Source of the DNA: an uncultured Bacilli bacterium
GTDB lineage: Bacteria; Bacillota_I; Bacilli_A; RF39; UBA660
DNA: 52,937 nucleotides
Direction of reading: 5' to 3'
Assembly (NCBI GenBank): GCA_944358875.1
Contig: CALVRZ010000005.1
Location: forward strand, 1-52,937
Position 1 is the first letter of the stretch, and every line of letters starts with the position of its first letter. The translations under genes were made by a program, and so were the position numbers. Shown here one piece after another: positions 271 to 8,936 of this stretch. Below the pieces are notes generated by a model. It did not search any database, was not told the origin of the DNA, and saw only the letters and a program-made list of their open reading frames with translations.

Positions 271-2781
271 TCAAAGTCTTTTCTTTTTCTTAGTCTTATT
301 AACCAAAATATTATTAAATACATTATAAGTAGATTCTAAAGCTTCTTTATACTCAAATCTAGCTCTAATATCCCATGGTAAAAATTTCGAAATAATATTA
401 CCATCTTTATCAACAGCTACAAACCAATCTTTATTACCTTCAATATAAATAAAATTAGTTACATCAATATTCTGAAAATTTTTCTTTAGTAGTTCTTTCT
501 GCTCCAAAGAAATAGGCATATAATCAATATCACTGTAAAGAATACTATTTACAATAATGCTAATTCTTTCCTGATCCTTTTCTTTTAAAACATCATATTT
601 AAACACTGGAGGTCTTTTTTGCAAAAATCTATCATCAGATAAATAATAATAGTTCTTATCATATGTCTTACTTTTAAATAAAATATAATTAGTGATAGTT
701 GGTTTATTATAATCTGTATAAAGTTCAGTATTTAAAGGAATAGGCTCATCTAAGTGATAGATTTCAAAATCCTGCTGTGACATGTAGCTTTGAATATGTA
801 AATCTGTTATTGTTACTACTTCAATATTTAAAAAATGTTCCCGATTATTTTTAACAGATTCTTCACAAATATTTTGTCCAAAAAGCATTAATGTTTCCAT
901 AATATCATCTAATACTTCTTCAGGTGGTTCTGGATCAATACCATTACAATGAATGGCATTACCACTTCTAACAAAAGGACAAATATATGTATTACCATAA
1001 TTATCATTTAAATATACAATTACACCTTGTTCATTAGTTAAACAATATTCTAAAAAGTCACCACCAATTGCGCCAACTTTCATACAATTGCCAGCATCGA
1101 CACCAACTCTTAACAAATATTCGGCATCGTAAGGTACAACGTTATAATCAAATTCACTAGTTCTTCCTTTAATCGTAGGAATAGAGGATGATGTTTTCTT
1201 TTTTCTTTTACGATGTAATTCAAAGACCTTTTTAACTATGTCATCTTCTTTTTCGAAACAATAAGTTCTTGACTTAATAATCTTCGATAAAGTTTCTAAT
1301 GTAATATCTAACAAATCAGGCTCTAATTGATATAAATTAGATTTAGAAATATCAATAACATCTAAAATAGAATTTAAAGATAAAGTTCCGTTAGCTTTTT
1401 TTACAATATCTTTAAAAATATCAAATCGATTAATAACCTGATCGATTGTTGTATTAAGTCCCCAAGCTTCACCATTTAAAATAATCCGCAAAAGAGCATC
1501 GTTATCATGTTTTAAATTACCAAGCAAAAACGATTGTAACTGAGGATCAACAATAGCACGTCCATTTTTATCTAATGTTAAAGGATAGTCACAATTACCC
1601 AGTAATGAAATAATTTCTTTAGCACTGATAGTTTTTCTTTCTTCTTTAGCATCTAATCTTTTCTTTAATGCTGCCATATAAATCCTCTTAAAATTATCTT
1701 CTCTTTCTTTTATTTTTTCATTTAAGATTTCTTTAATAATTTTTCTTTTACTATCTAAAGGAACATCTTTAATTCTATCTTTAATCATATTCATAAGTAC
1801 ATATTTTTCCCTATCAGAAGTAAAAATAAGAAAGTTTCCAAAGAAATCAATATCCATTTTATCAATAGCCTCTATTGTATCATCCTCAATACCATAGTAA
1901 TAGAACCTTTTTTGATGATTTAAACGAAATTCACGACGTTCATCTTTAAATCCATCACTACCAATCCTTTTAATAGCCATTGGTGTTAAATATGTAAAAT
2001 AATCTCTAACAATTTTATAAGCATTATCATAACCAAATATGGCATATAAAGTAAGAGAAGCTACTAAAATATCTTCATCACTATCTATCTTTTTTTCTTT
2101 TAATACGTGAATAATATTATTAATTTGTTTCGTATTAATTTTCTTTAACATGTCGTAACTATAGCTTCTATTATCATCTAAAATAATTTCATCATTCAAA
2201 CTATCTTTAACTTTTACAACAAGGCCAAATTTAGCTAAGATAAATAATTCTTTTTCATTTTTTGTTCGCAATAAATAAAGAGGATTAAGACCTGTCTTAA
2301 CTTTATTATTAAATAAATCAATAACATAAGAATCATAATTAAGCTCATTATTCATGTAATCATTTATAATCGAAGAAATCTCATTATTAAAAGTAACATT
2401 TTCCTTGTTCATTGCCCCAATAATAATATCAAAAATCTTATCATTAACAATTTGGCAATACTCAAATATCTCTTTAGCACATAAAGATGCCCATTCACTA
2501 CCAATAATCTTCTCAATAACAATGCTATCGACTAATTCAAAAATGGTTCTTCCAGCCTTAGAAGGACTTATATCTATTACTCTTTTATATAAGTTAGAAT
2601 TTTCAAGTATTTTAAATTTAATTGTATTATTAGAACGTAAGAAAAACAATCTGAATATTTCATCATTAACTTTTTCTAAAGAACCATCCTCCACAATTTT
2701 TATTAAATCACATTCATTAAGTTTATTATAATAAGATAAAAATTCACCTATACTAAGTTGACTCATAAATAAATTATTCAT
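271..2781 (-). CDS. Large uncharacterized cytosolic protein (836 aa)
   Basis: I do not recognise this protein with certainty. There is no signal peptide or membrane segment. It is rich in charged helices, and its C-terminus is a basic KTKKKKRL tail. Residues of roughly 540-640 form the most distinctive part: a DAGNCMKVGA motif, then a beta-rich stretch with YICPFVRSGNAI and CNGIDPEPPEEV. That layout (Cys motif, strand pair, G-N/D-P turn, helix) loosely recalls PcfJ-like plasmid proteins, but this is an impression only. The start is ATG at 2781, preceded on the minus strand by GGTGGTGAT; the later ATG at codon 6 has no ribosome site. It is a single-gene unit, convergent with tRNA-His and divergent from the SDR gene. 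Confidence 0.75.
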   Translation of the reverse strand: MNNLFMSQLSIGEFLSYYNKLNECDLIKIVEDGSLEKVNDEIFRLFFLRSNNTIKFKILENSNLYKRVIDISPSKAGRTIFELVDSIVIEKIIGSEWASLCAKEIFEYCQIVNDKIFDIIIGAMNKENVTFNNEISSIINDYMNNELNYDSYVIDLFNNKVKTGLNPLYLLRTKNEKELFILAKFGLVVKVKDSLNDEIILDDNRSYSYDMLKKINTKQINNIIHVLKEKKIDSDEDILVASLTLYAIFGYDNAYKIVRDYFTYLTPMAIKRIGSDGFKDERREFRLNHQKRFYYYGIEDDTIEAIDKMDIDFFGNFLIFTSDREKYVLMNMIKDRIKDVPLDSKRKIIKEILNEKIKEREDNFKRIYMAALKKRLDAKEERKTISAKEIISLLGNCDYPLTLDKNGRAIVDPQLQSFLLGNLKHDNDALLRIILNGEAWGLNTTIDQVINRFDIFKDIVKKANGTLSLNSILDVIDISKSNLYQLEPDLLDITLETLSKIIKSRTYCFEKEDDIVKKVFELHRKRKKKTSSSIPTIKGRTSEFDYNVVPYDAEYLLRVGVDAGNCMKVGAIGGDFLEYCLTNEQGVIVYLNDNYGNTYICPFVRSGNAIHCNGIDPEPPEEVLDDIMETLMLFGQNICEESVKNNREHFLNIEVVTITDLHIQSYMSQQDFEIYHLDEPIPLNTELYTDYNKPTITNYILFKSKTYDKNYYYLSDDRFLQKRPPVFKYDVLKEKDQERISIIVNSILYSDIDYMPISLEQKELLKKNFQNIDVTNFIYIEGNKDWFVAVDKDGNIISKFLPWDIRARFEYKEALESTYNVFNNILVNKTKKKKRL

Positions 2782-6522: not shown

Positions 6523-6551
6523 TTGTCAAAATACTAACAATATGGTAATAT
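6523..6551 (+). promoter_or_regulatory. Promoter of the G-tract leader and surface protein
   Basis: TTGTCA (6523-6528), 17 bp, TAATAT (6546-6551), starting 7 bp after the glyS stop. The predicted start near 6558 gives a leader of about 200 nt containing the small ORF and the terminator. Confidence 0.65.
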
Positions 6552-6591
6552 TATATTGGATCAAATAAAGAAAGAAAGGTGGTGCCTCCCT

Positions 6592-6648
6592 ATGCAAAAA
6601 TTGAATTTTAAATCGTTAACTTATTGTATACTAGGGGGGGGGGTATAA
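6592..6648 (+). CDS. 18-aa leader peptide ORF with a G10 tract
   Basis: ATG 6592 has a good ribosome site (AAAGGTGG, 6575-6582, 9-nt spacing). The ORF encodes 18 residues and contains ten consecutive G (6634-6643). With G10 it stops at 6646-6648. Deleting one G by hand opens the frame for 27 more codons to a TAG at 6722-6724, inside the 3' arm of the downstream terminator. With eleven G it stops within a few codons. The ORF therefore looks like a regulatory leader whose length depends on the tract. It could also simply be a small peptide gene. Confidence 0.55.
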   Translation: MQKLNFKSLTYCILGGGV

Positions 6649-6680
6649 ATTAACCCAAATCACTGAAAATAAAGAACTGC

Positions 6681-6734
6681 AAACTACAAAGATAAGTTTA
6701 GTAAAAACTAAACTACTTTCTTTGTAGTTTTTTT
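6681..6734 (+). terminator. Leader terminator / attenuator before the surface protein
   Basis: AAACTACAAAG (6681-6691) pairs perfectly with CTTTGTAGTTT (6720-6730). An inner stem AGTTTAGT/ACTAAACT (6695-6702/6707-6714) extends the hairpin, and T7 (6728-6734) follows. It sits between the only visible promoter and the surface-protein start, so that gene needs readthrough. Confidence 0.85.
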
Positions 6735-6758
6735 GCGTGCCAAGAAAGGAAGTAAAGT

Positions 6759-8936
6759 ATGAAATCTATTAAGAAATATTATCTATTGTTATTATTAATC
6801 ATAACATTAGCATGCGTATCAATATATGGAACATACGCCATGTTTACTAGTGAAATAGGTATTGATGCATTTAAATTAGAAGCATCTACTATACCAGTAG
6901 ATCAAGAAATTATGGAATATGAAAAAATAACAATAAATGCAAATGATAGTAAGACAATATCATTAAATGTAAGTAATTCAACTAGTCAAGTATTACATTA
7001 TGGAGCTTGGTATCAAATGATTAGCCCAGATACAATTAATGATAATATCACAATAGCAAAATTAACCGATAGTCCTGATGAGACAAGTGGCACCATTGAT
7101 GGTAATAGTAATAAGATTGTTTATATTTATATAGGTAATAATAGTAGTAGTGAAATTACATTATATGTAGGTATAAAATACAGTGAAACAAGTAGTTTAG
7201 GTTTACCAGATAACAGAGTATTAATTACAGGTACTAGGGATGGTAAATATGTAGTAGGAGTAACAGTAACAAATGGAACGGTGGAGAATGGTGCAACTTT
7301 AACTAATTTAATAACAAATGGTAGTTTTGAAGATGGAAGTATGGGATGGAGTACCTCAAGATTAACAACACCAAATAATAGAGTAGCGGGAACTATATCT
7401 TCATCTAAACATGCAACAGGAAATAATAGTTTATATATTAATGATACAAGTGATACAACTGGCTACTGGAACTATCAATATTTTACAGCTTCAATTGGTG
7501 ATTTATTATACATTCAATCTAAAGCATACGTCATATCAAGAGCATTCAGAATGTATGTGACTACAGATATTAATGGGCAAAATTCTGAATTTAATGCTTT
7601 TACTTTTGAGAATAATAATAAATTTATGTTATATTCTATAGAATATAAAGCAACTTCTACAACGCAATTTTTTCAAATTGGTAGCAGCATTGCTTTAAAT
7701 TCTTCAGAAGGGTATTTAGATGATATAATGATTTTGAATTTAAATGAAAATTCTGGGAGTAATTATCCATCAAAAGAAATACTGGATAGAAGTATAAGTT
7801 ATTTTGATGGAAGTGTAAGTTATAATTATAAAAAATTAAATAAAGGAAATGGTATTTCATTTAAAGTGACACCTACAGATAATGCTGGAATCGAAAGTGT
7901 GTCATGTACTAATAGTAATGCTAGTTATAATGAAAATAACGACGAATTAACTATAAGTAATATAACAGGAGATGTAAACTGTAATGTTAAATTTAAAGAA
8001 CCGATCACTGTAGCAGAATTAGTTGAACAGATGAAAAATAATTCCAACACTGGAACACCAGATTTTAGTCAAATAGCAACAACAGATGAAGGAGTATATA
8101 GTGCCCAAGACGATTATGGAACAAGCTATTATTTTAGAGGCGCTGTTGAAAATAATTATGTCAAATTTGCAGGATATTATTGGCGAATAATAAGAGCAAA
8201 TGGTGATGGAAGTCTCAGACTAATTTATGATGGAACAAGTTCCCATGCGAATGGAGAAAGTAGTATAGATAGGCATATCGGTACAAGTGTATATAATAAT
8301 AATTGTAATGACAATACATATGTTGGATATATGTATGGAAGTTCTCGTGCAAATAGTTATAATTCTACGCATTCAAATACCAACAACAGTGCAGCAAAGA
8401 CAGCAGTAGATAATTGGTATAAAATAAATATAGCCGATAAAGACTATGGAAAATATATAGCAGATGTAATCTACTGCAACGATCGAAGCTTATATAGTGG
8501 TGGTGGATATGCGAGCCAAACAACGTATTATAGTACATATAATAGATTAGAAACAAATAAAAATCCAGTATTAACATGTAGTCAAAAAAATGATGCTTTT
8601 ACGGTAAGCGATACAAGTAAAGGAAATGGAGCATTAACATATCCGGTAGGTTTAATCACGGCAGATGAAGCATCATTGGCGGGAGGAGTACTTAATGCTG
8701 CAAAAATCAATACAAATTATTACTTATACACAGGAAATCATTACTGGACCATGAGCCCAAGAAACGCAGATTACAATGTAGCATATGTTTCTCATATTTC
8801 ACACAGAGGATATATAGGATATTTTCCATCAAACCATACTACTCCGGAAAGTTATATAAGACCTGTTATATCTCTAAAACCAGACACAAGATTAATAGGA
8901 AACGGTACCATTACTTCCCCTTTTGAAGTATTATAA
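6759..8936 (+). CDS. Secreted multidomain surface protein
   Basis: This 725-aa protein starts with a signal peptide or anchor (KK followed by a hydrophobic stretch at about residues 8-26, then TYAMFTS, a pattern seen in TasA/camelysin-like and gut surface proteins). Residues about 185-325 begin with NLITNGSFEDG, typical of a jelly-roll carbohydrate-binding module. Residues about 345-420 form a small beta domain with two cysteines. The C-terminal 300 residues contain YYWRIIRANGDGSLRLIYDG and end with SYIRPVISLK, a module repeated in surface proteins of gut Bacilli and often left as a DUF. No LPXTG motif or C-terminal anchor is seen. The ribosome site is AAGGAAG. The leader terminator suggests switched expression. 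Confidence 0.8.
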   Translation: MKSIKKYYLLLLLIITLACVSIYGTYAMFTSEIGIDAFKLEASTIPVDQEIMEYEKITINANDSKTISLNVSNSTSQVLHYGAWYQMISPDTINDNITIAKLTDSPDETSGTIDGNSNKIVYIYIGNNSSSEITLYVGIKYSETSSLGLPDNRVLITGTRDGKYVVGVTVTNGTVENGATLTNLITNGSFEDGSMGWSTSRLTTPNNRVAGTISSSKHATGNNSLYINDTSDTTGYWNYQYFTASIGDLLYIQSKAYVISRAFRMYVTTDINGQNSEFNAFTFENNNKFMLYSIEYKATSTTQFFQIGSSIALNSSEGYLDDIMILNLNENSGSNYPSKEILDRSISYFDGSVSYNYKKLNKGNGISFKVTPTDNAGIESVSCTNSNASYNENNDELTISNITGDVNCNVKFKEPITVAELVEQMKNNSNTGTPDFSQIATTDEGVYSAQDDYGTSYYFRGAVENNYVKFAGYYWRIIRANGDGSLRLIYDGTSSHANGESSIDRHIGTSVYNNNCNDNTYVGYMYGSSRANSYNSTHSNTNNSAAKTAVDNWYKINIADKDYGKYIADVIYCNDRSLYSGGGYASQTTYYSTYNRLETNKNPVLTCSQKNDAFTVSDTSKGNGALTYPVGLITADEASLAGGVLNAAKINTNYYLYTGNHYWTMSPRNADYNVAYVSHISHRGYIGYFPSNHTTPESYIRPVISLKPDTRLIGNGTITSPFEVL

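Follow-up and report, generated by a model that had tools for sequence, protein, structure and literature searches.

A predicted surface-protein gene in the window, a 52,937-nt stretch of a contig from an uncultured Bacilli bacterium, is probably switched by slipped-strand phase variation of translation-coupled attenuation. The locus consists of a promoter, a leader ORF that contains a tract of ten Gs, a terminator and the surface gene, all in the places where an earlier note on this DNA had put them (Table 1). We propose that transcription would start from the promoter at 6523–6551 and that a ribosome would translate the leader ORF across the approximately ten Gs. At two of the three tract lengths, the leader would stop just behind the tract, the terminator would fold and transcription would end before the surface gene (OFF). 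The sequenced tract would correspond to this state. At the third length, the ribosome would occupy the 5' arm of the terminator, which then lies in the open frame, and would block the hairpin, allowing the polymerase to reach the surface gene (ON). Slippage during replication would alter the tract by one G and flip the state. As ~22 copies of this module are found before related surface proteins, each of these would be switched independently.

We infer translation of the leader at the window locus from its ribosome site and ORF; AAAGGTGG is located 5' of the ATG at 6592–6594. The stem-loop of the terminator has a folding energy of -20.7 kcal/mol (z = -5.7 compared with shuffles). The early stops that the earlier note gave for the leader with ten Gs (ending at 6648) and with eleven Gs are both present. 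Loss of one G yields a leader of 44 codons, and its stop is a TAG inside the 3' arm of the terminator, as had been claimed, although three bases away from the coordinates given (6725–6727, not 6722–6724). The claim that the surface gene has no other clear promoter also holds, as the gap of ~28 nt between the terminator and the ATG of the surface gene contains no promoter match.

Table 1. Features of the window locus (positions in the window) and the retroelement with its matching leader gene (positions within the named loci).
Feature	Position	Strand	Details
Predicted sigma-70-type promoter of leader	6523–6551	+	TTGTCA 6523–6528, 17-nt spacer, TAATAT 6546–6551
Leader ribosome-binding site	6575–6583	+	AAAGGTGGT; from sequence and folds
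Leader ORF, sequenced G10 (OFF) phase	6592–6648	+	18 aa, MQKLNFKSLTYCILGGGV followed by stop
G10 putative slippage tract	6634–6643	+	Other copies: 9–12 Gs
Predicted OFF-phase stops	6646–6653	+	G10: TAA 6646–6648; G11: TAA 6651–6653
Predicted ON-phase stop TAG, in terminator 3' arm	6725–6727	+	G9-type lengths only
Intrinsic terminator	6681–6734	+	Stem-loop 6681–6730 and T run; 5' arm 33 nt past OFF stop
Putative switched gene	6759–8936	+	Predicted secreted surface protein (725 aa), large paralogous family
Diversity-generating retroelement	L248:3192–3304 (G000:C3)	-	
Matching gene of leader L021	L021:162–275 (G000:C30)	-	

Long G tracts are far more frequent than expected. Shuffles predict 0.02 runs of at least nine Gs in the window, and the AT-rich 1.31-Mb genome contains 21 such tracts versus 0.05 expected. 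The arrangement of the frames is less exceptional in a single copy. Dinucleotide shuffles of the stretch between tract and terminator gave a probability of ~0.2 that a single leader has one open and two early-closed phases. The window locus alone thus proves little, and we consider the frame arrangement convincing only through its paralogues and relatives.

All 21 tracts of the genome sit in leaders of one build. Each of the 21 leaders has a single phase that stays open beyond the 5' arm of the terminator, and the other two phases stop early. By sequence, these leaders are either of type A (MQKLNFKSLTYCILGGG..) or of type B (M..NKPMFVMGGG.., with variants). Look-alikes of the window promoter (TTGTCA-N17-TAATAT) were recognized by eye at other type A leaders. 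In L033, the 22nd copy, the tract is interrupted (GGGGGAGGGGG), which would fix the switch in the OFF state; a compensatory change (ATTACAAAG/CTTTGTAAT) preserves the stem of its terminator. All 20 occurrences of the terminator motif ACTACAAA..TTTGTAGT in the genome follow a poly-G leader. Copies with identical bases adjoining the tract (CGTCA-G9/G10/G11-TATAAATTA) cover all three phases. Several type B copies differ in their distance to the terminator by non-multiples of three; the ON frame nevertheless remains open, reading the arm in a different frame.

The two types differ in the spacing of their elements. In type A, the OFF stops lie ~28–40 nt before the terminator arm, and type B has an intermediate OFF stop at ~21–26 nt. 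The terminator-to-ATG distance in type A is 24–35 nt, which leaves no room for another promoter. At most type B loci, ~116–135 nt separate the terminator and the gene, and 10 of the 11 type B leaders of this genome have a possible promoter-like sequence in between. Type B leaders, for example L025, L017 and L026, have a conserved promoter-like TTGTAA-N17-TATAAT with an inverted repeat (TATGACA..TGTCATA) at ~+95 to +190 downstream of the tract. These sequences make a second control of the genes possible, and the switch may not be the sole control at most type B loci.

The same build is found in other species. A pattern scan of genome contigs found the second species of the genus (uncultured Bacilli bacterium E24__bin45), which has 11 leaders. 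Five of these are ON, five are OFF by one G and one (L106) has no passing phase, so that 10 of 11 fit. The earlier note had suggested looking for the same leader before paralogous surface genes, and it is indeed repeated: 21 copies and the interrupted one in the window's genome, with those of the sister species in addition. Three other genera of the family share the layout with unrelated leader peptides and terminators. In one of them (G075), two kinds of leader share the layout although their peptides (ACACATACTAA..) and terminator do not evidently resemble those of the window's genome; here, one phase stops just past the 5' arm and the others at most 15 nt from the tract. Two further genomes (G199 and G234) have one leader each, both fitting the layout. 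A leader from another genus (L178 in G220) has two passing phases, and G221 has no clear terminator at its leader. No such leader was found in viral contigs, and the other inspected matches of the scan were poly-G runs in unrelated contexts. The counts from a survey pattern are lower bounds, as its spacing is too short to capture the leaders of the window's own genome.

Across several species and genera, 38 of the 40 testable leaders pass the frame test, defined as a single phase that crosses the 5' arm without a stop and two phases that stop at least 14 nt ahead of it. This, together with the presence of both OFF and ON copies, supports the earlier reading of the locus as a switch. The exceptions, which count against it, are L106, which passes in no phase, and L178, which passes in two. 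Leaders of one genome are also related to each other and cannot be counted as independent tests. When counted by sequence family, seven of eight show the arrangement (P = 3e-4). A rough star-tree simulation with the observed substitution numbers gave probabilities of 0.04 (type A) and 0.009 (type B) that all copies keep one open phase.

The genotypes of the 40 leaders are unevenly distributed over the possible states. Seven are ON, 28 would be ON after losing one G (one of them after a change in either direction), four after gaining one and one never. Six of the ON copies belong to the window's genome and the second species, and a single leader out of 21 is ON in the former (L026). Tract lengths differ between copies as well as between species. 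Of the OFF copies that only one direction of change would rescue, 27 carry one G too many and four carry one too few. The numerical excess of overlong tracts is real, but the copies are related. It may be due to a preferred tract length of ten with ON at nine, to selection for OFF or to rescue by frameshifting.

A further property is common to three large leader families, in which the same pairing of the leader ribosome site is reached by different sequences. In type B, folds place the ribosome site against the sequence directly after the tract (AGGAGGTAAT/ATTACCTYYT), as in the second species (AAAGGTAG/CTACCTTT). In type A, the ribosome site pairs with AUCACU/ACCACC and the adjoining CCUCCC pairs with the G tract; at the window locus, 6578–6583 can pair with 6659–6664. 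Once transcribed, the pairing segment would shut out new ribosomes. As a result, only an early-loaded ribosome close behind the polymerase would translate the leader, which would help the timing needed for attenuation. This pairing was not evident in other genera.

The skew in tract length bears on an explanation without any heritable switch, in which the G run makes ribosomes (or RNA polymerase) slip and the OFF genotype yields constant low read-through. The 27 copies that are one G too long, versus four that are too short, err in the direction that a +1 ribosomal slip would rescue, and compensating changes at the borders of the type B tracts keep the one-too-long phase. However, the seven ON leaders need no slip by genotype, tract length varies freely between copies and L033 has been kept despite its interrupted tract. 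The skew itself is inflated by related copies, and a mutational optimum near ten Gs with ON at nine explains it as well. Programmed frameshifting thus seems unlikely to us. We give still less weight to a constitutive attenuator, in which the leader would do no more than set a basal level and the G tract would serve as a Gly-Gly-Gly peptide or as the partner of CCUCCC. The pairing of the tract with CCUCCC in type A, and an equivalent C-rich stretch in the leaders of the second species, agree with such a role, but this partner is absent from type B and from other genera, and glycine can be encoded without poly-G. Moreover, copies differ in phase, and elsewhere in the family poly-G serves as a slippage site, in the promoter spacers and early codons of other genera. 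All of this makes a fixed attenuator highly improbable. Homopolymer errors in sequencing or assembly combined with an accidental open frame could be suspected for a lone leader, which is not significant, in a draft genome of 56 contigs of which some end at these repeats. Twenty-one tracts in one genome, and the recurrence of this design in separately assembled genomes of other species and genera, effectively refute chance or artefact.

Slipped-strand switching of the attenuator, the reading that we prefer, invokes coupling of transcription and translation. The polymerase of Bacillus subtilis can outrun ribosomes, and this would weaken such coupling. Several other candidates were rejected. Glycine-codon attenuation tied to the upstream glycyl-tRNA synthetase gene does not apply as other leaders lie elsewhere, and for a T-box or other riboswitch nothing came near the Rfam gathering score. 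Reiterative initiation at the G tract, which lies 3' of a -10-like TATACT, was dismissed as conservation is instead seen for the upstream promoter, the ribosome site and the ORF, and as type B lacks TATACT.

The earlier note considered the combination of poly-G slippage and attenuation unusual. The logic has already been shown in Streptococcus gallolyticus, where changes in repeat number in a leader ORF control a premature terminator at pil1 (Danne et al. 2014, PMC3894217), whereas neither a poly-G nor a multi-copy version of a leader-attenuator switch was found in the literature searched. The pil1 switch was demonstrated including its translation dependence and terminator deletion, and the same design was found at pil3 (PMC3894217). 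As in pil1 and pil3, the module described here has a presumably slippery repeat in a short leader ORF upstream of surface genes and an intrinsic terminator between leader and gene, and repeat number moves the leader stop from well before the terminator to at or inside it, as expected for ribosome-induced antitermination. In S. gallolyticus, a leader stop at 4 nt from the terminator is ON and at least 28 nt is OFF (PMC3894217), and the intermediate OFF stop of type B falls between these distances. The modules have no evident sequence relation. New compared with pil1 are the poly-G tract (9–12 Gs, versus ~22 GCAGA pentamers in pil1/pil3), the single ON phase in three (versus two high-expressing phases), the regulon of ~22 paralogous non-pilus surface genes (versus two pilus loci), the possible sequestration of the ribosome site in all three large families of leaders, and the overlap with a diversity-generating retroelement described below.

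Homopolymeric G tracts of ~8–12 also slip and switch surface genes in the poly-G/poly-C contingency loci of Neisseria, Campylobacter and Helicobacter (PMC5084427, PMC8355987). In those loci, the tract belongs to the promoter or to the switched gene's own frame, whereas here it is part of a separate leader ORF and would act through the terminator. Similar to trp-type leader-peptide attenuation, the position of the translating ribosome would decide whether the terminator forms; unlike trp-type attenuation, there is no amino-acid sensing. As the position of the ribosome would be set by the length of a DNA tract, the state would be heritable and random rather than responsive. If true, this is multi-copy and widespread surface-protein switching by leader-attenuator repeat length in an uncultured gut lineage; the papers searched describe it for streptococcal pili only. 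As the state can be read from DNA alone, from tract length and frame, the ON/OFF patterns of whole repertoires can be scored in metagenome reads.

The surface gene of the window is one of a family whose products are predicted to be secreted, and the genome contains 38 stretches that match this family. One relative, C21, lacks a poly-G leader and has an ordinary promoter. The window protein has no significant Pfam or NCBIfam match and no curated family fits it; DUF6273 is weakly matched in some members of the family. The predicted structure of the C-terminal domain has a pLDDT of 39, too low to be of use. Among the surface paralogues, the C-terminal region before RPVLSLK is hypervariable.

The genome also carries a diversity-generating retroelement, in which a reverse transcriptase (RT) ORF is accompanied by a short Avd-like ORF and a template repeat rich in AAC. 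The surface gene downstream of poly-G leader L021 shows a 77% match to this template, and all 20 core mismatches are at adenines of the template, which make up 30 of its 97 bases. The putatively switched L021 protein is thus also a target of the retroelement. A second reverse transcriptase is encoded at L249 (G000:C19; RT ORF 1285–2388, minus strand), with an AAC-rich template-like stretch at 1165–1246. The OFF skew and the retroelement overlap raise questions on how surface repertoires are displayed. Approximately 22 independent one-in-three switches, nearly all OFF by one G so that a -1 slip turns one on, and at least one protein that would also be rewritten by the retroelement, could amount to near one-at-a-time antigen display; we put this forward tentatively and hold it to be rather doubtful.

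Poly-G tracts also occur at other sites in related genera. In G028 (loci L124–L143), tracts of 8–11 Gs lie between TTGACA and TATAAT-like boxes, as well as in early codons of surface/pilin-like ORFs. G022 (loci L144–L163) contains ~69 tracts, mostly in a repeated promoter-like TGCAACT-G9-TGCAATACAAT element, where they are apparently promoter spacers. Both carry massive poly-G contingency repertoires. Type IV pilin-like ORFs of G074 (loci L121–L123) have poly-G among their first codons, which suggests translational phase variation of pilins. Given these tracts in promoter spacers and first codons of other genera, poly-G slippage seems to be commonplace in this lineage. At L113 (G075:C164), a long surface-protein reading frame contains a G9 at position 664, probably an in-gene contingency tract.
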